Positions 18,857 to 59,802 of a DNA stretch of 64,000 nt are shown here, piece by piece. This DNA comes from Pseudeuparius sepicola. Its lineage: Eukaryota > Arthropoda > Insecta > Coleoptera > Anthribidae. Every line of letters begins with the position of its first letter. Within the stretch, counting starts at the first letter, position 1. The notes below the pieces were generated by a model. That model did not search any database, had not been told where the DNA came from, and was given only the letters and a program-made list of their open reading frames with translations. The DNA is taken from contig OY987298.1 of NCBI GenBank assembly GCA_963920635.1, positions 127,543,735-127,607,734 of the forward strand. Reading direction: 5' to 3'. Both the position numbers and the translations under genes were made by a program.

Positions 18857-20048
18857 TTACATTAAATGTTCAAAATGGTTTCCATTATTATTTACACATA
18901 ACCTAAGTCTTTTTAAGAAATTTTTTCGGACATTTTCAAAGATTAAGGGACGATTGTTTAAACTATCAATTTCTAATTTTACTCATCTTTTAATCTCCTC
19001 AACATTTTCGGGGAGGTTCTTATAAACTTTATTTTTTAAATGCCCCCACAAGAAAAAATCCAAGGGGGTTAAATCTGGACTACGTGGCGGCCACCTTATT
19101 GTTCCATGTTTACCAGTCAAATTTTCAAACGAATTGTTCAAAAATTCCGTTATGGGCACAGTTATGGAAGGAAGCGCCATCTTGCTGCCATATTAATTGT
19201 CTTTCTTGGAGTTGGTTAAGAAAAATTAATGGCAACTGGTCAAAGTATTGTTCCAATTCGTTCTGGATTAAATGTAGGTATTTCCTACCTGTCATACTTC
19301 CTGAATAAAATAGAGGGCCCATTATAAACTGGTCAAAGTATTGTTCCAATTCGTTCTGGATTAAATGTAGGTATTTCCTACCTGTCATACTTCCTGAATA
19401 AAATAGAGGGCCCATTATAAAATTTCCCACAATTCCGCACCAAACACCCACGGAATTTCTGCGGGATTTCACAACTTCACGAAATGCCCGTGGATTGTCA
19501 ACAGACCAAAATATACTATTTTTCCGGTTGTACATTCCCGCCGTTCTAAATGTAGCTTCATCGGACCAAATAATTTGTTTAAAAAATCCAGCTCCACCTC
19601 TTGCAAAATAAAAGTTTAACATTGTTTGACAATATTCCAGTCTTCTTGCAGCATCTCCAGGGAATAGCCTTTGAACTGGTAATATTTTGAAGGCTTTAAA
19701 TTTGCTTAATTTCATTACCCTTTGTATTGTAGACCGGGGAATTTGTAAGTCTCTCGCTGCATCTCTCTGAGATTTTTCGTTATTTCTTCTGAAATTTAAA
19801 ATTCGTTCTCTCTCGTCCTCACTAATTCTAAACCCTCTTTTTCTCTTGCTACTCACACTTCTTGTCGATCTGAATCTTCGATACAGCTTATATATAAATG
19901 AAGCACTCTGAACATTTCTATTTGGATATTTACGAGAATACTCCCTCAAAGTTTCTACGTATCTTTTATCATTTTTGATGAAGATCTCTAAAATATCACA
20001 GCATTCTAAGGTACATAAAAATATAAATAATATACTAACAAACAACAA
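18857..20048 (-). pseudogene. Tc1/mariner-type transposase with an internal 31-codon duplication
   Basis: Minus strand. An N-terminal helix-turn-helix region (LREYSRKYPNRN, then RRNNEKSQRDAARDLQIP) is followed by the DDE domain: WSDEATFRTAG, DGASFHN and WPPRSPDLTPLDFFLWG supply three acidic positions. A 93-bp unit (19234-19326) is repeated in frame at 19327-19419, doubling FIMGPLFYSGSMTGRKYL. A frame slip near 19150 shifts the last aspartate to another frame. A stop at about 18985 is followed by the expected C-terminus up to GNHFEHLM at 18857. The first residues are uncertain because the next transposon begins within about 50 bp upstream and there is no ATG in the readable part. Dead copy. 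Confidence 0.75.
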
Positions 20049-20170
20049 AAACGGGCATTTATATACCTGTTCTTAAAGACCATTTTTGCGAGCTACGCGT
20101 CTTGACACAAAAAAACTAAGTTTTTTTAATGCATGGATAGTGGGCTCGAACGCCAACGGTCTCGTACAGG

Positions 20171-20256
20171 ATGACACAATCGATAACTAACTTAGATGAA
20201 TTATACACACTATTAAAAAAATCAAGCGAAGATCAAACCAACAAATTATGTCAGGT
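20171..20256 (+). pseudogene. LINE ORF1, first 28 codons (separated by insertion)
   Basis: The ATG at 20171 starts MTQSITNLDELYTLLKKSSE and reaches the AGGT at 20253. Joining across the inserted element to 23579 with one AGGT kept gives LCQVSEQQTEV, in frame with the rest of ORF1. This fixes both the ORF1 start and the insertion site. Confidence 0.75.
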
Positions 20257-20520
20257 CGTCGTCAATCACACAAAGTGACGTATCTCATTTTTAATGATTT
20301 TTCAGGAGAACGATTTAAAAAAAATTGCAATGTTTGTCCTTTAACTGCGGTGCAAAAAAATATTCAGTGACAGGATGTTTGGCATATATTAATAGTATGG
20401 AGTGTTTCTAACTTAGTTTCGATAAGAAAAGTGTCATGTGGTTGACCACCCTTGAGATTTTGAAGTTACGACCATTTGTGAGATTAATATATTTTAGTGT
20501 CTGAGATACGCCAGGTAAAC
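20257..20520. repeat. Left-end subterminal motifs of the DUF7869-like element
   Basis: Besides the terminal copy at 20268-20288, weaker forms lie at 20472-20490 (GTTACGACCATTTGTGAGA) and 20502-20516 (CTGAGATACGCCAGG). They match the right-end set and are likely transposase binding sites. Confidence 0.6.
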
Positions 20521-20774
20521 TTTAAAGTTATAATAGCATATTATAGGGTTAACAGGGGACAGTTAAACACAAACTGTTAGTGAACAACTTTTTATTTTCG
20601 TAATGATAAGGGGGAACACTTATTAACATTAAACTTTAACTAAATGATTTCTTATTTCATAAAAAATATTGAACTGCAAGTGATACAATGAATAATATCG
20701 GAAAAAAAAAGATTCTTCTTAGGATTATTATCTACTGTTATTATATCCTACTACTAAATCTATATCTACCAATT

Positions 20775-23163
20775 TTAATGTGGTAGCGATTGATAAAAAT
20801 GTTTATGTACATCAAGCCTAATAACTGGAGTATCTCCAGTACACAAGGACTGTAAATCTGAGTATTTATCTTCAGAGATTTTATTACGCTCTGAATTTAA
20901 TTGTTTTGGAAATAACCTCTTAAGGTCTATGTTAAGACGTTTCAGTGATATCGACTTGTAATGTTCCTCAAGGTGACTGGTTTTGAAGAAGATTTGAGTT
21001 GAGAACTCTTTGGAAACTTTGAACTCCATGATGTCAGTCCATTTAAATGACTCTCCTGTTTCCGATGTTGTTTTTAATGTTAGAATACGTAAGTCCTTTG
21101 ACAGTGCCTTAAAATCTAGGAAATCGTCATACTGAAGAGGGTAAACAATGTATGGGTGCTGTTTCCTAGCTAGTCTAAATATTGGGTACAGTTGAGACGG
21201 AATAAAAATATTACCGGCATGTGCAATTGCATGAGAGATGGCGCTGTGTGCAGAATCACCCTCATTCTGGCCATGGAATGATTCGAAAAATTTCAGAGTA
21301 ATTTCTTCTATGTTTTCACTTTGTAAAACTGTCAGCAATAGCATCGTAGCCATGATGGAATTTTTATTCTGACCACTGCAGCCGTCAGAGTATAGAGAAA
21401 CTATCTTAAACCCTTTAGAATCATAGCTTTGCAAAGCTTTATGTACACAGGTTGCAATTTCTGACGCACCCCTTTTGCTATCACCTTCATACCAACAATA
21501 ACAGAAACAATCCTTGCTTGAGATATTATAAAATGTAAAGTTGAAGAGTGCTAAACGTCTTTTATAGAACACTGCACTTTCGTTAGTAATTGGTAAATAA
21601 ATAACCTGTTGCAGGTCAAAAGATGCACACAGAAGTGTTTGATCGTTCGCAGCTTTCTCTTTACAAGTTGCTTTGAGTTCTCTAACAGCTGTTTTCTCTG
21701 CATTGTGTTTTCTAAATTTGGCTTCTAATTGGGCTTTAATATTATCGTCTCCAGTTTTATACATCATGCATAATGAGCATTGATCCTTTTTAGGAGTGTG
21801 AAATGACAGTTGTTGGTTTGTCTTGAATACTCTTTGGTAGGTAGAGAAACTTGGTTTTGGATCATTTTCTGATAATGTTTGCAGGTACAAGTAATACATT
21901 TTGGAAAGTGAGAGGTCTGGATGTAAGTATTCTCTACTGGAACTGGACCGACAATAATGTGATTCCATTTTTGGAAATCTGTCAATGTGTTTTTGTATTT
22001 CAGAACGAACCATTTTGTCTCTTGCCACAATGGTTTCAGATTTTCGTCCACCTCTTTTGTCCATGTTAACAACGCCGATTTCATTTACCTTCTGCAGTGC
22101 AGTTCTTGCTGTTCTCTCCGAAATGCCCAAGGTATTTAAGAAAAAGGTCTTACAAACTGGAACACGATTCTTGCTGACTGAAAAATAATAACGAACACTT
22201 TGTTGTCTGCGTGAAACTTCACTTTTTGTTGTTTTCTGTTTTGTATCCATGACTTCTGAATGGTGCACGATAAATTCTCGTTGACGATTTATGTCTGCAA
22301 GAGCATAGTAACCATCAAAAATCTTAAACCTCTGGGAATCTTCAATTGTAGAACACAGCCGTCCTAGTTTTTTGCATGTGTCACCTTTGCATCTGCAACT
22401 TAAATACATGAAATTTAATGATTATGTAGTTCATTAAAACTTACCTTGGCTTCATAGCCTTAGGTGGAACTACTTTATTTTTCATCGTTATGTATTCTTT
22501 ACCAGAATTCCTTAAACACTTTGCTAATTTTTGTTTGTTAACACGGCGTTTTTTGTCGTGATCTCCTTCTTTGCTAGTTCCATCGACAATGTGCAGCTCA
22601 GGTTGAACATTACTATTTGAATTATAAAGTTTTGTAATCTTCGTTTTCTTCTTTCTTTTGTTTTTATGAGAGTCACAGTTCAAGTTATTTAGAAAGTGGC
22701 TGTGACATAGCAAGATCCAGCAACGGTGACAAGAGCTAAATACTTCAGCTTTACATTTGTAATATTCGCACGTTGCCACGTACGGAGGGTCTTTATCGGA
22801 ATCATAAAATACCTCTTCACCACTACTGCTTGCTTCCCTTTGAAAATCAGAACACAAACCTACACTTTTATCTTGGTTCGGGAGTTTCGACTTTATTTGA
22901 GCTAGTGGTATGTTATCATCTGATGAATCGCTCTCTTGTGTACCTACTACATCATTGACTTGTTGTAACTGTACATCACTTGATGATTTTGTTTTATCAC
23001 TTGATGAAACATCATATTCTGTATCTATTACCTTGCCACTATACCAAATATTTTTGTAAAACATTTTCACTTGTGTTCCTTTCTTAATCTGGCCGCGAAA
23101 CATAAGTTCGTTTGATGAAACAACATTTAACGTGCCATCTTTCCAAACTACAAGCACATCCAT
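20775..23163 (-). CDS. Putative transposase, DUF7869-like, two exons
   Basis: Exon 1 (23163-22445) starts with MDVLVVWKDGTLNVVSSNEL, a small chromatin-reader-like N-terminus, then acidic serine-rich sequence, a Cys/His cluster (CEYYKCKAEVF, CHRCWILLCHSHF) and a lysine-rich stretch. A 46-bp intron (22444-22399, CCAAG|GTAAGT to TTTAAG|TTGC) leads to exon 2 (22398-20775), which begins CRCKGDTC. It carries SERTARTALQKV (helix-turn-helix-like), CSLC, then SFDLQQV, WYEGDSKRG, YSDGCSGQNKN and GQNEGDSAH. The D/D/(E or D) spacing resembles an RNase H-like catalytic core; D265, D342 and E383 or D385 of the second open frame are candidates. About 780 residues, no stops or slips. I recall this family from many insect genomes as uncharacterised (DUF7869); the transposase role is inferred from its position inside TIRs. 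Confidence 0.75.
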
Positions 23164-23310
23164 AGTAATAATATTACGTTATTTCAAGAGCACGGCAATT
23201 CAACAGCGTACGCTACAATGTCTTGCGGACTACTACATCCAACAAACTGAGTACAGCACGCATAGCCCTAACAGAAATATGCAGTTCTCAACTCGTCTCG
23301 ACTTGCAGAA

Positions 23311-23574
23311 ATGAGATACGCCAGTGGTGCAAACATACGAATTATAGAATAGAATCTCACAAAGTGGCGTAACTCAAGATACGCCTATTTGTGAGATTAT
23401 ATATGCGCAACTTTTGAGATACGCCATCGACTAATGGTCTAAATGTTGGAAGACTATCGTTAGTTGAGTTACGCCACTTTGTGAGAAGAAAGAGCTTAAG
23501 AAATTATGTCATATTTTGGTCTTATCTCAAAATTCATTTTTTCTTAGATACGTCACTTTGTGAGATTGACGACG
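23311..23574. repeat. Right-end subterminal motifs of the DUF7869-like element
   Basis: Copies or half-copies of TGAGWTACGYCACTTTGTGA or its complement lie at 23312-23324, 23354-23377, 23378-23397, 23414-23426, 23463-23486 and terminally at 23546-23565. Orientation alternates. Confidence 0.7.
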
Positions 23575-23578
23575 AGGT

Positions 23579-24326
23579 ATCCGAACAACAAACAGAAGTG
23601 ATTAAAGAAGAAATCAAATATATTAAGGAAGAAATAAAAAGTCTAAAGGAGGTTTATCAGAAAATTGAATTTGTGGAGGAAGAGTTAACCCAACTAAAAA
23701 CAAAAAACATAAGGCTGGAACAAAAAATCAGAAAAAACAACATCATTGTGTTTGGATTAGAAGACGTGGATAAGAAAAATCTGCCTCAATATTGTGTTGC
23801 AAAGCTTAATGCTCTGTTGCAAATTCAGATATCAGAACAAGACCTCAACAACGCATATTTACTAAACAACACGGATACACCACACCTCGTAATAGAATTT
23901 ATATCCTTCCTTAAAAAATCACTAGTTATATCGCAAGCTGTAAAACTGAAAGGTTCGAAGATTTCGATAGCTAATGACCTTTGTTTTGAAGACAGAAGGC
24001 AGCAAAAAATCTTACGTTATCACTTGAATAAATCCAAAGAGCAAGGGTTTGTCTCAAAAATTAAGTCCGGTAAACTAATAGTTGGGCAAAAAACATACAC
24101 AGTGGAGCAATTGAAACAAATAGAAAACGACGAATATTCAGACGAAGAGTGCGAAGAAATAGAAGGTGAAAGCCAAGACATAGATAGTGTACAGAACCTA
24201 GACAAAAGGGAAGGACATAATAAGCATCTGAAGAAAAGAAAAAGACACAATACCCCGAGGAAAGGAACCATTGGTGCAAATATACAAACTCGAAGCCAAA
24301 AGAAAAGTACTGGTACTGATATTTGA
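23579..24326 (+). pseudogene. LINE ORF1 main part (coiled coil and RRM-like)
   Basis: Continues from 20171-20256. A coiled-coil heptad region (VIKEEIKYIKEEIKSLKEVY, then LEQKIRKNNIIVFGLE) is followed by an RRM-like domain and a basic C-terminal domain (KGSKISIANDL, LRYHLNKSKEQGF), then an acidic tail and a KKRKRH basic stretch, ending at 24326. This is the usual L1-like type of ORF1 protein, which binds LINE RNA. The frame is open apart from the transposon insertion. Confidence 0.7.
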
Positions 24327-24482
24327 ATTCTTGCAAATTGTTAATATTTATAACATAACATATCGATAAGTAGACTATATTTAGGAATAGAAAGTATAAG
24401 GTAATAAGTTAATAAGAATTTAGAATTTTTTGTTATTAAATTATTATATATATAGTAGATAACAGTAGTTATATGTATTGAG

Positions 24483-25978
24483 ATGGGTGAATATGTTAGG
24501 AAATTTAAAATAGATAAATGCAATTCATTAAATATTAATGGTGCTGCTGGTTTTTTTCAAGAGATTGAGGAGTTAAGTAATTGCTTCTTAATTTTCAACT
24601 GTAATATAAGAAGTATAAACAGGAATTTTGACGAATTGCTATTAACTTTAAAAACATTTAAATTTTGCTTTGATGTGATTGTTCTCAGTGAGACATGGAA
24701 GGTACAAGACCTAAACCTATATAGAATTGAAGGTTATGACTTAGTATACAACCACGGTGAAATAAACCAAAATGATGGTGTAATTGTTTATTACAAAGAA
24801 AGATATAAAGATCTTCAAACTGTCCAAATTAAGACAATTGGGAAAATTAAGGTACTATCCTTGGAATTGAATATCGGTGACAAAAAAATAATGATAGATT
24901 CTTTATATCGCGGGCCTGCTACTTGTCCATATACTTTTAATGACGATTTAAGAAGCTTTGTTACAAAAACACAGAAACTGCAAAAAAATCTATACTTTTT
25001 TGTGGGAGACATAAATATAAATATATCATCTAATAAAGACTATGCCATTGACTACTTAAATATACTTGGCGAGGAGGGATACCAACCTCTAGTAAACTCC
25101 TATACACGACTACATAGGGGATCGCAGACTTGCATTGACCATATATTTGTTAAAGGTCCGCATAACATAAGTCACAGTTCTTTTGTTTTAAATAATTCTA
25201 CGACTGATCACTTCCCAATCATATCTGCTTCAAAAATTCGTATACCTGCTTACAACGAACTACCAAAAACCACAAAAGTAAAAAAGATTGATAAAAATAA
25301 GTTGCAAAAACTTTTCAAATCGGAAAAATGGTTACAATTTTACACAGAGAATAATATAGACACAAAAACACAAATTTTTACAGATACTATAAAAAATATC
25401 ACAGATAAAGCCTCTACAGAAATAATTATAAAAAATACCTCTAAAAAGCGCCATCAGTGGATCACTAGAGGACTTATAAAATCAATAGCAATAAAACAGT
25501 CTATGTATAAACTTTGCATACTACATCCAGGAAATGTTGAATATGAAGTAAACTACAAAACATATAAAAATTATTTAGAAAAATTAATATATAGAGCAAA
25601 AATAAACTATTTTAAATACGAATTGGAAGGTAATAAAAAAGATAGCAAGCATGTTTGGAATGTTGTTAATAGATATATGGGAAAGGAAAAAGAACTGGTA
25701 GAAATAAAAAACATAGTCAGAAGGAAAAACATTAAACGATAAAAAAGAGATAGCGGATGCATTTAACCAATTTTACACCAGTTTAGGAGGGACTCTTGCA
25801 AGCAAATTAAAAAAACCGATACCGTCTGTCAGAAAAACCAAAAAATGCCAACAAAGTATATTTTTTACACCAGTCGATGAGAAAGAAGTAGAAGGCCTAA
25901 TAGCAGATTTAAAATTGAATAAAGCTCCGGGAAAGGATAAAATTACTTCAAATATATTAAAATGGTCATCAGAATATA
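24483..25978 (+). pseudogene. LINE ORF2, endonuclease and start of RT
   Basis: The ATG at 24483 opens an apurinic-type endonuclease: FNCNIRSINRN, VIVLSETW, YRGPATCPY, FVGDINI and TTDHFPI hold the asparagine, glutamate and aspartate/histidine catalytic positions. A linker follows. A one-base slip near 25735, in an A-rich run, ends the frame at 25742; the next frame continues with KKEIADAFNQFYTS and LKLNKAPGKDKITS, the first RT motif, up to SSEY at 25978. There the Tc1-like element begins. The rest of ORF2 resumes at 29590. Confidence 0.8.
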
Positions 25979-53966: not shown

Positions 53967-56900
53967 CTATCCAGTAGGAGCCGGATTGGGTGGATTGGGT
54001 GGATGCGCCTTGAGGTCTTTCGCGTGCCAGACCCCTAGGGCACGTCCATTCATGTCACAGAGTTCATACGACCATGGGGAAAGGATTCGCGAAACACGGT
54101 AAGGACCTGTATATTTTGGGGAAAGTTTTGCAGTGAATCCTTTCGAAGCATCTGATAAAACATGCGCACGTTTCCAAACTTGTTGGTTCAAGCTAAATCG
54201 TTCTTCCCTGCGGCGCAAATCGTATGTGTGCTTACTCCTATTGTAGGCAACTTTGATACGTTTCGCCACATCTTGGCATATCTTTTCCAAGACCTCGTTC
54301 TTGCGCAAATCTGGTTGGGGCGTGTCGACAGCAGGGTCATCAATTAGAGGTTTGGAATTTCCACTTATGGAAATCTTTCGTCCAAAATGGAGAAGATTTG
54401 GGGTGAGACCAGTCACTTCATGCCTGGCAGAACGGATGGCATAGGCAACCTTAGGTAAATACTTGTCCCAATCCCTTTGTTTATCTGCTACATATGACGT
54501 TAGCATTGTTTTCACTACTCGATGGACCCTTTCAACAGGGTTGGCTTGTGGATGGTAGTTTGCGGTGTGTTTGACCTCAACGCCATACCTCTCCATGGTC
54601 TCCTTGAAGAGCCTGCTTGTAAACTGGACTCCATTATCCACAATAATCCGACTCGGGGCTCCATGCACGAGGATGACTTGGTCTTCGAGCACACGTGCTA
54701 CTGCATTAGCTGTTGATGTTCTCAACGGGAAAAGAAGGACAAATTTTGTAAAACAGTCACATACTGATAGGATATAAACATAACCGGAGGAGGATCTGGG
54801 TAGTGGGCCAACGAGATCGGCACACAGTAGTTGCCAGGGTCGAGACACTGTCACGACCTTACTGAGCATCTTCCCTGCTGGGGCTTTTTGCTGTGGTTTG
54901 GTACTTAGGCATACTACACACCTGGTAATGTACCTTGCTACATCTGCTTTTAAGCAGGGCCAGTAGTATCGCTCTGAGATTCGCCCTACCGTCTTATATC
55001 CTCCTAAGTGCCCACATGTTGGGGGATCATGATTCTGCTTAATCACTGTTTGACGCCGCTCTTTTGGTACTACTTCCAACCAGTCATAGGTCGAATCTGT
55101 TAGGTCGGGATAGGAAGTCTTAGCGCGCTTGTAGAGCACCCCGCTCTCAAGCCGCCAAAGTGGGTATCGACGTGGCATCGAGGAGACTCGCTCACACATT
55201 GTGAGGTACCACTTGTCAGTCGTTTGAGGGGTCTCGGCCGCCACAGTAGTCACCATGGGGACCGATCGGGAAAGAGCATCCGGAACGACATGCTCTGCTC
55301 CTTTCCGGTGCACGATCTCAAAATCGTACTGTTGCAACCTGACCGCCCATCTCGCGATTCGACCAACCGGATCTCGGATGCTGTATAGCCATTTCAGACT
55401 GTAATGATCAGTTAAAACGGTGAATTTCGTTCCCTCTATGTATGGTCGCAACTTCTCCACTGCAAAGATAACTGCAAGACACTCTTTCTCTGTAGTGCTG
55501 TACCTGCGTTCATTCTTGGTAAGCGAGCGACTTAGGTAGCATATTACCTTTTCCTGACCTTCCTGAACTTGTGTCAGGACCGCCCCCAAACCAAAGTCAG
55601 ATGCATCAGTTTGCACCACAAAAGGGTGTTCGAAATTGGGACAACTGAGAACAGGCGCACTCACCAAGCGCTCTTTTATAGATTCCAGGGCACGTTGGCA
55701 TGAATCATCCCACAAGAATTCTTGATTTTTGCGAGTCAGATTTGTCATGGGTGCGACAACAGTAGAAAAGTTGGGTATAAATCTTCGGTAATACGAAGCC
55801 AGGCCCACAACTCTTCGCACCTCAGTGACAGTACGAGGGGTTGGGATTTGTATGACCGCCTCTACTTTTTGAGGATCCACCATGAGCCCCTCCGCATTGA
55901 CAACGTATCCGAGATATCGGAGTTCCGGTTTGCAGAACGTGCACTTATCCCGATTTAGGGTCAAACCTGCGCCCTTGATCCTCTTGACCACAGTTCGCAA
56001 AACCTCAAGATGCTTCTCAAACGTAGGGGTGCAGATTATCACATCGTCAAGATAAACGAACACATACTGTTCCAAATCTGCGCCAAGAACACGGTCGATC
56101 AAACGTTGCCACACCGCGGGGGCACTGTGCAACCCGAACGGCATTCGGCAGAACTGAAAGAGGCCACGGTTTGGGACCGTGAATGCCGTGTACGGTCTGC
56201 TCTCTGGGGCCACTGGTATTTGCCAATAAGCAGACTTTATGTCCAGAGTTGTTAAGTACCTCGCATCTCGCAGCTTGTCCAGGATAGAGCTCACCCATGG
56301 GATCGGGTAGGCATCTGGTTCACTCACCGAATTTAATTTCTTATAGTTGACGCAAAAACGCCACCGTCCGTCACCTTTACGAACCATTACTATAGGAGAA
56401 GACCAAGGCGACGTTGAGGGTTCAACGATCCCTTGCGCCAGCATGTCGTCAAGTTCATCATTGACATGCTTCTGCAGTGCTGGAGAGATGGGGTAGTAGC
56501 GTTGCTTTATAGGTGCCGACGTAGTTTTAATGTGGAGCTCCACAAGGGGCGTACAACCCAACTTATCACCCATGTCTGAAAATACCTCGTCTATTGTACT
56601 GGTCAACTGCCATCGTTGGTCCTCAGTCAAGGACTCATAGGGACATATAGCACTGATCATACACCTTCGTTCCACGATGTCCGACCCAAATGACCACTCC
56701 CCAGCGTTGAGATCTGGGATTATGTCCATTTTCTTCCAAAAATCGACCCCTAGGATAAGAACATGGGGTAGGGATGGTACCACCAGGACCTGAATAACCC
56801 TAACTCTGTCCCGAAGGGCTATTGGTATACAGACAGTACCCCGACTGGTACAAACTTGACCATTGGCCACGGTACAGTTTGGCCGTTCCTCCGAATTAAT

Positions 56901-57053
56901 AGAGCAATGCTCTTTCATGATTTCCCAACCTGGTTTACCTATGATGGTGTGACTAGCTCCACTATCTAGCAGACCCAGAAAGGACAATCCATAAATTTTC
57001 ACCGTTAGGTAAGGACGCTCATCATCCTTGGCATGTTCGGTAATAAAATCCAA
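53967..57053 (-). CDS. pol: Gypsy pol polyprotein (protease, RT, RNase H, integrase)
   Basis: About 1028 residues, open to the stop at 53967. The protease has LLDSGASHTIIG (near residue 30). RT has LDIKSAYWQIPV and VYLDDVIIC. RNase H has TDASDFGLGAVL. The integrase has a zinc-binding H...CVVC region (CGHLGGYKT to RCVVCLSTK), then CADLVGPLP, IIVDNGVQFTS and NPVERVHR for the catalytic D, D and E, and ends with a GPY-type module (YTGPYRVSRIL). Its frame is -1 relative to gag, and no ATG lies at its start, so expression by -1 frameshifting from gag is likely. All catalytic positions are present. The start given is only the beginning of the readable frame. No envelope gene follows. Confidence 0.9.
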   Translation of the reverse strand: MDFITEHAKDDERPYLTVKIYGLSFLGLLDSGASHTIIGKPGWEIMKEHCSINSEERPNCTVANGQVCTSRGTVCIPIALRDRVRVIQVLVVPSLPHVLILGVDFWKKMDIIPDLNAGEWSFGSDIVERRCMISAICPYESLTEDQRWQLTSTIDEVFSDMGDKLGCTPLVELHIKTTSAPIKQRYYPISPALQKHVNDELDDMLAQGIVEPSTSPWSSPIVMVRKGDGRWRFCVNYKKLNSVSEPDAYPIPWVSSILDKLRDARYLTTLDIKSAYWQIPVAPESRPYTAFTVPNRGLFQFCRMPFGLHSAPAVWQRLIDRVLGADLEQYVFVYLDDVIICTPTFEKHLEVLRTVVKRIKGAGLTLNRDKCTFCKPELRYLGYVVNAEGLMVDPQKVEAVIQIPTPRTVTEVRRVVGLASYYRRFIPNFSTVVAPMTNLTRKNQEFLWDDSCQRALESIKERLVSAPVLSCPNFEHPFVVQTDASDFGLGAVLTQVQEGQEKVICYLSRSLTKNERRYSTTEKECLAVIFAVEKLRPYIEGTKFTVLTDHYSLKWLYSIRDPVGRIARWAVRLQQYDFEIVHRKGAEHVVPDALSRSVPMVTTVAAETPQTTDKWYLTMCERVSSMPRRYPLWRLESGVLYKRAKTSYPDLTDSTYDWLEVVPKERRQTVIKQNHDPPTCGHLGGYKTVGRISERYYWPCLKADVARYITRCVVCLSTKPQQKAPAGKMLSKVVTVSRPWQLLCADLVGPLPRSSSGYVYILSVCDCFTKFVLLFPLRTSTANAVARVLEDQVILVHGAPSRIIVDNGVQFTSRLFKETMERYGVEVKHTANYHPQANPVERVHRVVKTMLTSYVADKQRDWDKYLPKVAYAIRSARHEVTGLTPNLLHFGRKISISGNSKPLIDDPAVDTPQPDLRKNEVLEKICQDVAKRIKVAYNRSKHTYDLRRREERFSLNQQVWKRAHVLSDASKGFTAKLSPKYTGPYRVSRILSPWSYELCDMNGRALGVWHAKDLKAHPPNPPNPAPTG

Positions 57054-57118
57054 GACTGCTCGGCGACTATAGAAGCTTTTGGTGCAAAGACATAAAGACA
57101 GCGAGCTCGACGTGCACC

Positions 57119-58888
57119 CTACTGCCGGCTCGCTTTGGCTTTTTTTGCCTTACAGTCCGGACAAGCCGTTGCAATAACACCCACTCGCCCACACCTAAAG
57201 CAGTGGATTCGCTTTGGCTCCGGACATTGCTTGAACCGATGGCCTGCCTTTTCACAATTCCAACACTCGACAGAGACAGATGTTGTCTCTACAGCGTCGA
57301 CTTTAAGTTGTTGGTTGGGCTGGACAGGGCTTATTTCAGCTCGAGATAAGTTACCTCCAGTCCTACGATATGCAAACTCCGGTTCTACCAGGAATTTTGT
57401 ATTCGTCGGTGGTGGACAGAACCTTTGAACTCGCAGTTCGGTTTCCTCCACAAACCGTCCGATGCGCAGTAGCTCATTTACTGAAAAAATAGGGTGGACT
57501 GCCAAGTGCGTCTGGATACTAGGCAGAAGGTTTCTCCTGATAATTTGGACTCTAGATGCTTCTGGTGGAATTTCCGACAAGCGTGAGAACATATTCTCCA
57601 TCACAGACACATAATTTATGAGTCGTTCCTGAGCTCCTTGGGTCCTCCTTCTAATCTCTTCCCATAGAGTGTACTCATAATCATATGGTTGGAATGCTTC
57701 TTTGAGTTGCTTGACGAGATCATCCCAGGACACAAATCGACCCATGCGGTACCAAAGCAAGGCGTCTTTTGTAAAAAGCTCTGGTGCGGCCCGAAGCAAC
57801 TGCTCCTTTGACACGCCTCGTGACATACGAAGCTCCTCCACCCGCTGCAGAAAATTGATTACGCTTCCCGCTCCATCATATTTAACGTTCCACCGGCCAA
57901 CATCTACAGGACGAGATAGCACATTATACGTTCCATCATCCAGAGAGGGAAAATGTAAATTTTGCAGGCGACCTGCTAGAGGATCCACAGTTGAATTGGC
58001 CACATTCGTCTGGAAGTGTGGTTGAGGGTAAGTATCTTCATAAGTTCGAACAAGGTCCTGAAAACGTACCGATGGTGCGTACTCGTTTACATTGGGAGCC
58101 CTGGGGAGAGCATATGCATTGAGGTTGTTACCATCTGTGGGAGGTAGGTGTGCCTGTGAGTGTGATTGGGATTCCAGGGAGTGTACTTGTGGCATGTGCG
58201 AATGGTTATAAGTTGATGGTACTAATATCTGCCGAGAGAATTGTTGATGCTGTGACGTTTCAACTGAAAGCCTGGGGTTTACGGAATGAGAAGTCTGAGG
58301 CTCATGAGAGCTCCGGATTGAAATCATGTTGCTTCTTAGAGGGGTGGCAGCTGCTTCCCCTGCCTCACAACGAACATCTCGAACACCGTGAGCATTCTGT
58401 GGACTGTCAGAAGCTGGTTCCACCTGATGGTCTTGCATCGGGGGTTCTCCCCTTACTGACGATTCCTCTTCCGAGTATGTGTCCTCATATACCGACATGA
58501 GCGACACAATCAGCTGTTGGTCAGTGGCAAGTAGTGATTTTCTCCTTATCTCCATCGAGGGTTCACCTTCTGTAGCTATCCTGTTCAGACGAGCCTGCAG
58601 CTGCAACAATCGGGATCTAACCCTGAGGAATTCATTCCTCTTCTTTTCCACCTTAAAGTTCTGGATATCCCCTGCTAAAACGTTCAGCTTCCGCTCACAC
58701 TCTTCCAAGTCCTCGACTGGATTTATGTTAGAAACCAGAGGTGCTGTCGCTTCTCCTAAACGTTCTCTTCGCCACGCAGCCCTGACGGCTTCTCGTTTGT
58801 CTGAAACAAGATCTCTCAAAGGTTTTAAGCCTCTAATCCCCATTTCGTAGTCCAGATCGTCTCCTGCCAATCGGTTAATGTCCACCAT
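57119..58888 (-). CDS. gag: Gypsy gag polyprotein
   Basis: The first ATG is at 58888 (MVDINRLAGDDLDYEMG), 589 codons to the stop at 57119. The N-terminal half is helical and charged (ECERKLNVLAGDIQ). A retrotransposon gag capsid-like region follows (FLQRVEELRMSRGVSKEQLL, LWEEIRRRTQGAQERLINYV). Near the C-terminus is a canonical zinc knuckle CWNCEKAGHRFKQC, then a second, CFRCGRVGVIATAC, in which the usual histidine is absent. A basic tail KAKKAKASRQ ends the protein. It would form particles and package RNA. Pol follows in the -1 frame after about 65 bp. Confidence 0.85.
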   Translation of the reverse strand: MVDINRLAGDDLDYEMGIRGLKPLRDLVSDKREAVRAAWRRERLGEATAPLVSNINPVEDLEECERKLNVLAGDIQNFKVEKKRNEFLRVRSRLLQLQARLNRIATEGEPSMEIRRKSLLATDQQLIVSLMSVYEDTYSEEESSVRGEPPMQDHQVEPASDSPQNAHGVRDVRCEAGEAAATPLRSNMISIRSSHEPQTSHSVNPRLSVETSQHQQFSRQILVPSTYNHSHMPQVHSLESQSHSQAHLPPTDGNNLNAYALPRAPNVNEYAPSVRFQDLVRTYEDTYPQPHFQTNVANSTVDPLAGRLQNLHFPSLDDGTYNVLSRPVDVGRWNVKYDGAGSVINFLQRVEELRMSRGVSKEQLLRAAPELFTKDALLWYRMGRFVSWDDLVKQLKEAFQPYDYEYTLWEEIRRRTQGAQERLINYVSVMENMFSRLSEIPPEASRVQIIRRNLLPSIQTHLAVHPIFSVNELLRIGRFVEETELRVQRFCPPPTNTKFLVEPEFAYRRTGGNLSRAEISPVQPNQQLKVDAVETTSVSVECWNCEKAGHRFKQCPEPKRIHCFRCGRVGVIATACPDCKAKKAKASRQ

Positions 58889-59802
58889 TTTGTTTGCTAT
58901 CGCCTCTCCCACCACAGAAAATATTTTCAGCACTGACACTGACTTAACTTGTTTTCACTAACCAATGCCTATATTCTCTATAACTACCTAATTTTACTTA
59001 CTAACACTACTTTTCACTAACTAAATTAACACTAACTTAAGACTAACTCACTGTAACTAGCACTACCTATATACACTAAACTTACACTAAGTATAACACA
59101 CTACAATATAAGTTATAACACGAGTTAGGATGAAAGTTGTATCCTTTTATGTGTACTTTCACAAACCACAATCTCAAACTTTCCCTTTCCAAAAAAGAAA
59201 AAAAAGGAAAAAAAAGGGGGGGGTAGGAAGTCGATGTCGTATACTGTCGCTTACACCTCAGTAGAGTCGCACAATAATTTCAATTTAGATTTGTTTATTG
59301 TAATACCACCCTGTATCTATCAATGTATTTCTCAAAATCTAAATGTATTTCAAGAAACTAAAACCAAGCTTTAATCGTTTGCCAAATGTGTTCTTTTATT
59401 TCTTCCGATACCTTATACTCGAGAAAAAAAATCATTTGCAACTAAAACTTTTTAAAAAAATTAACACCCTGTGTTGAATCTGACTGCCGCTTGCTGTGAA
59501 AACAACTAAGTGCAGTAAGTAGCTCAAAATAACTGCAAAATATGCCAGTCAATTGTTTCGGATCACCACAATGGTGAACAGTGTTGCACTAGAACCTAAA
59601 TGGAAAGTAGCTTTCTACATTTACAAATCTACCACCTAACAGTACTAACCTTCATATTTTGTGTGATCTACCAATCTACTGTCACCGTCTTAGAGGTTAC
59701 CCTCGATATATTCTTAAGACGAAAATCAAAGGCAAAACACCAACAAAGAGGCTCAAAAGTCACTCAAAACTATAACATCTGTTCGTAATGATTTACTAAA
59801 CA
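58889..59802 (-). other. Gypsy 5' leader
   Basis: Sequence between the primer-binding site and the gag ATG. It contains reiterated ACTAACTT/ACACTAACT words (58955-59100), an A/G-rich run at 59186-59225 and ACCACCCTGTATC at 59308. No frame of note. Confidence 0.6.

Follow-up and report, generated by a model that had tools for sequence, protein, structure and literature searches.

The Sola superfamily of DNA transposons, with its Sola2 group, reportedly goes back to Bao et al. 2009. A passage of one later account characterizes Sola elements by a transposase with three catalytic aspartates (DDD), 4-bp target-site duplications (TSDs), a size of mostly 2-9 kb and terminal inverted repeats (TIRs) of 11-1124 bp (PMC10741241). 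For slime-mould Sola2 elements, a section of another paper gives TIRs of 12-21 bp and AT-rich 4-bp TSDs of the type AWWT, i.e. ATAT, AAAT and ATTT (PMC3627910), and Sola1, Sola2 and Sola3 are treated in part of a third as divisions of one superfamily (PMC4455052). Here we describe an element of similar build from the anthribid beetle Pseudeuparius sepicola. It occupies 3,318 bp (20257..23574, gene on the minus strand) of a 64-kb stretch of contig OY987298.1, hereafter the window, and its sole long gene encodes a DUF7869-type protein. In our reading it is an autonomous class II DNA transposon, and this gene encodes a transposase with a predicted RNase H-like DDD core; we put the probability of this at about 90%.

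The element is a complete DNA transposon that was mobile very recently. Its TIRs of about 29 bp (20257..20285, plus strand; 23546..23574, minus strand) match at 28 of 29 positions and are flanked by AGGT on both sides (20253..20256 and 23575..23578), as the initial annotation had described. The termini, CGTCGTCAATC...GATTGACGACG, are exact 11-bp inverted repeats nested in the 29-bp TIRs: CGTCGTCAATC is found at 20257 on the plus strand and at 23574 on the minus strand, and the arms 20256-20305 and 23526-23575 show 82% complementarity. The insertion interrupts ORF1 of a long interspersed nuclear element (LINE), which begins with an ATG at 20171 (20171..20256, plus strand) and resumes at 23579..24326 (plus strand). 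Once the flanks are joined with one AGGT, the ORF1 frame is open across the junction LCQ/VSEQ, exactly the repair that had been claimed. Taken alone the 11-mer pair is not striking, at least two matches with at most one mismatch having appeared in 13 of 100 shuffles, but this doubt is removed because six other full-length copies share the exact ends, each with its own 4-bp duplication.

Those copies come from a search of the genome (769 Mb, 16 contigs) with the protein encoded by exon 2, which gave at least 80 matches (79 of 1298 candidates scored). All seven full-length copies of this family (family A), the window copy included, align over the entire 3,318 bases with the same end points, and differ pairwise by 0.06-0.31% in substitutions. 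The reading frame is intact in four of them, at most 0.12% of substitutions apart, and is broken by indels of 1-49 bp in the other three; copies so nearly identical point to recent activity. Their 400-bp flanks share no similarity. The left and right duplications agree in all seven cases: AGGT in the window, and AAAT, ATAT, AAAT, AAAT, ATAT and AAAT elsewhere. The AGGT reported earlier is thus present at the window element without being the usual target. A DNA query with the left 304 bp recovered the seven copies and eight shorter end-like matches, all of which were fetched. One of the eight (L043:45-1148) is a 1.1-kb non-autonomous relative with both family-A-like ends and AATT on each side.

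The same organization recurs in five further families (B to F), represented by 28 loci that were picked as multi-copy or fairly close, single-copy relatives being left out; with family A this makes 35 loci. Boundaries were placed at the CG with which the TIR starts, once the first alignments had been inspected. Across the six families, 33 of 34 paired copies have the same 4 bp duplicated on both sides and in no case does the duplication reach 5 bp, so that TIRs combined with a fixed-length duplication characterize independent insertions, as expected of class II elements with TIRs. ATAT occurs 18 times, AAAT 8, ATTT 3, AGGT 2, and ATAA and AACT once each; the AWWT type accounts for 29 of the 33, and the AGGT of the window is an exception. 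Since AAAT, AGGT and AACT are non-palindromic, the length of the duplication is fixed at four; a 3-bp duplication with TCG ends was also considered and does not fit copies with these three targets. In one copy from each family the two TIRs match perfectly or almost perfectly for about 19-34 bp, and element length ranges from 3.1 to 3.9 kb. The proteins of families B-F (one copy each) are 32-49% identical to that of the window. Family B is a similarly young expansion: ten copies (L015-L024; G000 C1, C2, C3, C6, C8, C9, C11) match L015 at 99.8-100% identity, and all have perfect 4-bp duplications and an open frame of 757 codons.

The gene, complement(join(20775..22392, 22445..23163)), encodes 778 amino acids with no internal stop, so the initial description of a single long spliced gene was accurate. 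Exon 1 (22445..23163, minus strand) holds the start codon, the N-terminal part and a Cys/His-rich stretch, which in some relatives resembles the Transp_Tc5_C zinc finger (P0052 scores above the cut-off of that profile, P0070 just below). The 52-nt intron (22393..22444, minus strand; GTAAGT..TTGCAG, a GT..AG intron) has identical first and last six bases in all seven copies, and the gene model is supported by a relative (P0003) that reads KPRCKGDTCKK through the junction in one frame, like the spliced window gene. Exon 2 (20775..22392, minus strand) comprises a possible winged-helix region, the DUF7869-homologous RNase H-like core, the C-terminal part and the stop. Weak hmmscan matches of its protein to PaaX and CTU2 were taken as chance, apart from the possible winged helix.

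The likeness to the DUF7869 family (PF25273), for which Pfam gives no function, is borne out by homology to labelled relatives and to families C and D, both of which pass the profile cut-off. A homologue search returned 398 proteins; among the 120 listed, many are labelled PF25273, and named ones among the matches listed come from beetles (including Ceutorhynchus), a butterfly, a moth, a gnat, a psyllid bug, sea snails, limpets and a crab. Echinoderms, thrips and mosquitoes joined them in additional searches. Against a cut-off of 26 bits, a relative with 70% identity (P0005) scores 22.5 and one with 49% identity (P0061) 29.2. The genome holds at least 150 PF25273 places (scored of 534 candidates), all above the cut-off, and 14 control genomes hold none. 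Homologues in viral and prokaryote contigs were not confirmed, nor was the TIR pattern in viral contigs. Four homologues bear other names in public databases (P0149, DNA repair protein rhp54; P0165, polyketide synthase PKS1; P0166, Treslin; P0175, PstB 2), apparently through mis-annotation or fused gene models.

AlphaFold2 models of the core (exon-2 residues 253-391; 21219..21635, minus strand) reach predicted local distance difference test (pLDDT) values of 91.6 and 92.0. Together with a VIA re-alignment they predict an RNase H-like topology, b1-b2-b3-a1-b4-a-b5-a, in which b1, b4 and the helix that follows b5 bear acidic residues; the structure prediction suggested in the initial annotation was meant to look for such a fold. 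In the re-alignment the core model matches integrases, the integrase rows being 5-14% identical. Mariner-type entries are the sole eukaryotic superfamily in the VIA lists (Mos1 rows at a root-mean-square deviation of 13.5-20 A, Metnase at 3.2 A), and the absence of others is uninformative. By sequence, solved structures gave one match at E 0.071 and two at E 0.088 and 4.4, none of which was used.

The predicted catalytic residues are D259 in FDLQ (exon-2 numbering; 21615..21617) and D336 in SDGC (21384..21386), and the probable third is D379 in EGD (21255..21257), all on the minus strand. Neither these three nor H382 varies across all 89 close relatives (alignment A1) and all 30 proteins of a diverse set (A3). 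The spacing D-76-D-42-D is found in 74/89 relatives. When all 204 retrieved proteins were scanned with a crude pattern, 181 showed the first two motifs, and 176 of these have an x-x-D..H third motif and five none; the further 23, fragments or variants, were not inspected individually. The initial annotation had proposed a D/D/E centre formed by SFDLQ, YSDGCSGQNKN and GQNEGDSAH; its first two aspartates and its RNase H-like core agree with our predictions, whereas the third acid is probably better placed at D379 than at E377, judging from conservation. E377 is a glutamate in 86/89 close and 21/30 diverse relatives and otherwise A, D, S, T or P; at position 386 an E stands in 27/30 of the diverse set and in only 6/89 of the close relatives. 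Because D379 never varies and E377 does, we read the triad as DDD, with E377 as second choice. The same transposon with a D259, D336, E377 triad (DDE) and a structural D379 is an unlikely alternative: E377 sits at the start of the same helix in the model and is kept, like D259, D336, D379 and H382, in all five other families tested (one copy each; E311 is S in family E), but unlike D379 and H382 it is exchanged in some relatives of both alignments.

A feature absent from the initial annotation bears on how such a transposase might recognize its ends. A 24-bp repeat, AATCTCACAAAGTGGCGTATCTCA, occurs six times with at most six mismatches; every copy in the window lies in one of the two end regions, and 200 single-base shuffles of the ends never yielded more than one. 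The copies lie at 20264..20287 (plus; core AATCTCACAAAGTGGCGTATCTCA), 20462..20485 (minus), 23353..23376 (plus), 23375..23398 (minus), 23465..23488 (minus) and 23544..23567 (minus, mostly inside the right TIR). At the edge of the second, at window position 20463, 10 bp are missing that all six other full-length copies keep, a loss that could affect the mobility of the window copy. With its zinc-finger-like N-terminal region and the possible winged helix, the transposase would presumably bind both kinds of repeat, subterminal and terminal, would cleave at the CG ends and would join the cut ends across a 4-bp staggered target, preferably AWWT; joining of this kind yields a 4-bp duplication. Cut-and-paste is the default expectation for an element with TIRs and a short duplication of fixed length, and it is from these features that we infer it.

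Several points weigh against parts of this interpretation. The profile search that had been recommended gave a divided result: P0061 and families C and D lie over the PF25273 cut-off, whereas hmmscan up to E 10 does not match the window exon-2 protein to it. None of the copies fetched from families A, B, E and F stands among the 150 places scored, and these families are therefore tied to DUF7869 through their homology to C, D and the labelled relatives. Many homologues carry the domain and two of six families exceed its cut-off, while the window protein, like the copies fetched from B, E and F, is below detection or unlisted. With the whole exon-2 model, Foldseek gave no match below E 0.001 (its top rows, unrelated entries with poor scores, were not used); with the catalytic piece, the single match below that value is a herpesvirus terminase nuclease (best E 6.6e-4). 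Herpesvirus terminase nucleases lead the latter list, IstA ranks fourth and RNase H entries come lower, an order that agrees with an RNase H-like fold and names no family; the ranking of integrases derives from the VIA re-alignment, not from Foldseek. Neither an excision nor a footprint has been seen for the cut-and-paste mode. The Sola placement compares trait descriptions, and a link to Sola2 through slime moulds failed: no slime-mould names stand among the homologue matches listed. Finally, one family C copy with intact TIRs (L027) has unequal flanks, GATT and ATAT, and is perhaps a recombinant or bears a mutated duplication, and at one of the 35 loci (L039) the right end was not found.

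Among the alternatives on classification, a DNA transposon lineage outside all described superfamilies, Sola2-like only in target preference and general build, deserves the most attention, although we think it improbable. The window protein matches no Pfam transposase family and, by sequence, no solved structure convincingly, and no paper on DUF7869 or PF25273 was found in the literature searched, which misses most subscription journals, nor anything relevant by a search of papers for the motif words. Yet the DDD signature, the 4-bp AWWT duplications, the size and the TIRs coincide with published Sola and Sola2 traits, and absence from Repbase would be unlikely for a family so abundant in animals. 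The 'new DNA transposon group' of the initial annotation was therefore not upheld, on traits rather than on transposase sequences. It is similarly doubtful that DUF7869 elements, as a widespread and recently active animal lineage, converge with no described superfamily, Sola included, and that their transposase forms an independent DDD branch of RNase H-like enzymes behind the DUF.

That some other protein mobilises the element, the DUF7869-type one being a passenger or the product of a host gene, is very unlikely. The transposase role is a prediction, and the non-autonomous relative L043 exists. However, the element has no other long gene, the protein recurs in six divergent families whose TIRs differ, D259, D336 and D379 are kept in all five copies tested, and the model predicts a fold like that of integrases. 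Inverted repeats that lie around a host gene by chance can be dismissed despite the near-chance 11-mer pair, and so can the segmental duplication of a single insertion, as the 400-bp flanks of the seven copies are unlike and their duplications differ. The TIR-bounded copies with 4-bp duplications bear out the DNA transposon proposed from the outset.

The transposase reading provides a testable function for an orphan Pfam domain; many animal proteins with this domain are called "uncharacterized", and there are 398 homologues and at least 150 places in this genome. Where homologues go by unrelated names, for instance "Treslin" or "DNA repair protein rhp54", gene annotation should check them and mask them as products of transposons. 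Four intact, near-identical copies, defined ends and a target preference make a transposition assay directly possible.

Other coding sequences were noticed in the window. A DUF4817/helix-turn-helix mariner-like open reading frame (ORF) lies at 19125-20072 (minus strand) and includes a 31-residue stretch, FIMGPLFYSGSMTGRKYLHLIQNELEQYFDQ, twice in tandem and in frame. Downstream of the interrupted LINE ORF1, an ORF with an endonuclease/exonuclease/phosphatase domain (24459-25742, plus strand) is probably the start of LINE ORF2. In a Ty3/Gypsy-type element at 53967-58954 (minus strand), a single frame of 1060 codons combines protease, reverse transcriptase, RNase H and integrase domains; next to it lies a frame of 611 codons that no Pfam family matches at E 0.001.

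Among known systems, the predicted core shares the RNase H-like topology, with acids on b1, b4 and the post-b5 helix, with the retroviral integrase core (e.g. FIV 4mq3), IS21 IstA, Mos1 and Metnase. It differs from the retroviral core in matching no rve or DDE Pfam family, in a third acid that is probably D and in a second-to-third spacing of 42, compared with about 35 in retroviral integrases. Ginger1 has an integrase-like transposase and 4-bp TSDs; the element resembles it in its 4-bp duplications and integrase-like predicted fold, but its protein has no rve match up to E 10, and Ginger1 was rejected. Kolobok duplicates TTAA. The same duplication is given for piggyBac in a published abstract, and both were rejected, none of the 33 duplications being TTAA. 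Tc1/mariner, with a 2-bp TA duplication according to a passage of PMC10741241, was set aside in view of 4-bp duplications such as AAAT and AGGT. The element most likely belongs to the Sola superfamily, a described but little-studied group, and would be of Sola2 type, to judge from the published traits. AGGT (2), ATAA (1) and AACT (1) among the 33 TSDs depart from those of Sola2; in likeness to Sola and Sola2 stand the 4-bp TSDs (33/34 paired copies), mostly AWWT (29/33), TIRs of tens of base pairs (19-34 bp, within 11-1124 bp), a length of 3-4 kb (3.1-3.9 kb, within 2-9 kb) and a transposase whose invariant D259, D336 and D379 would form, on the RNase H-like model, a DDD centre.
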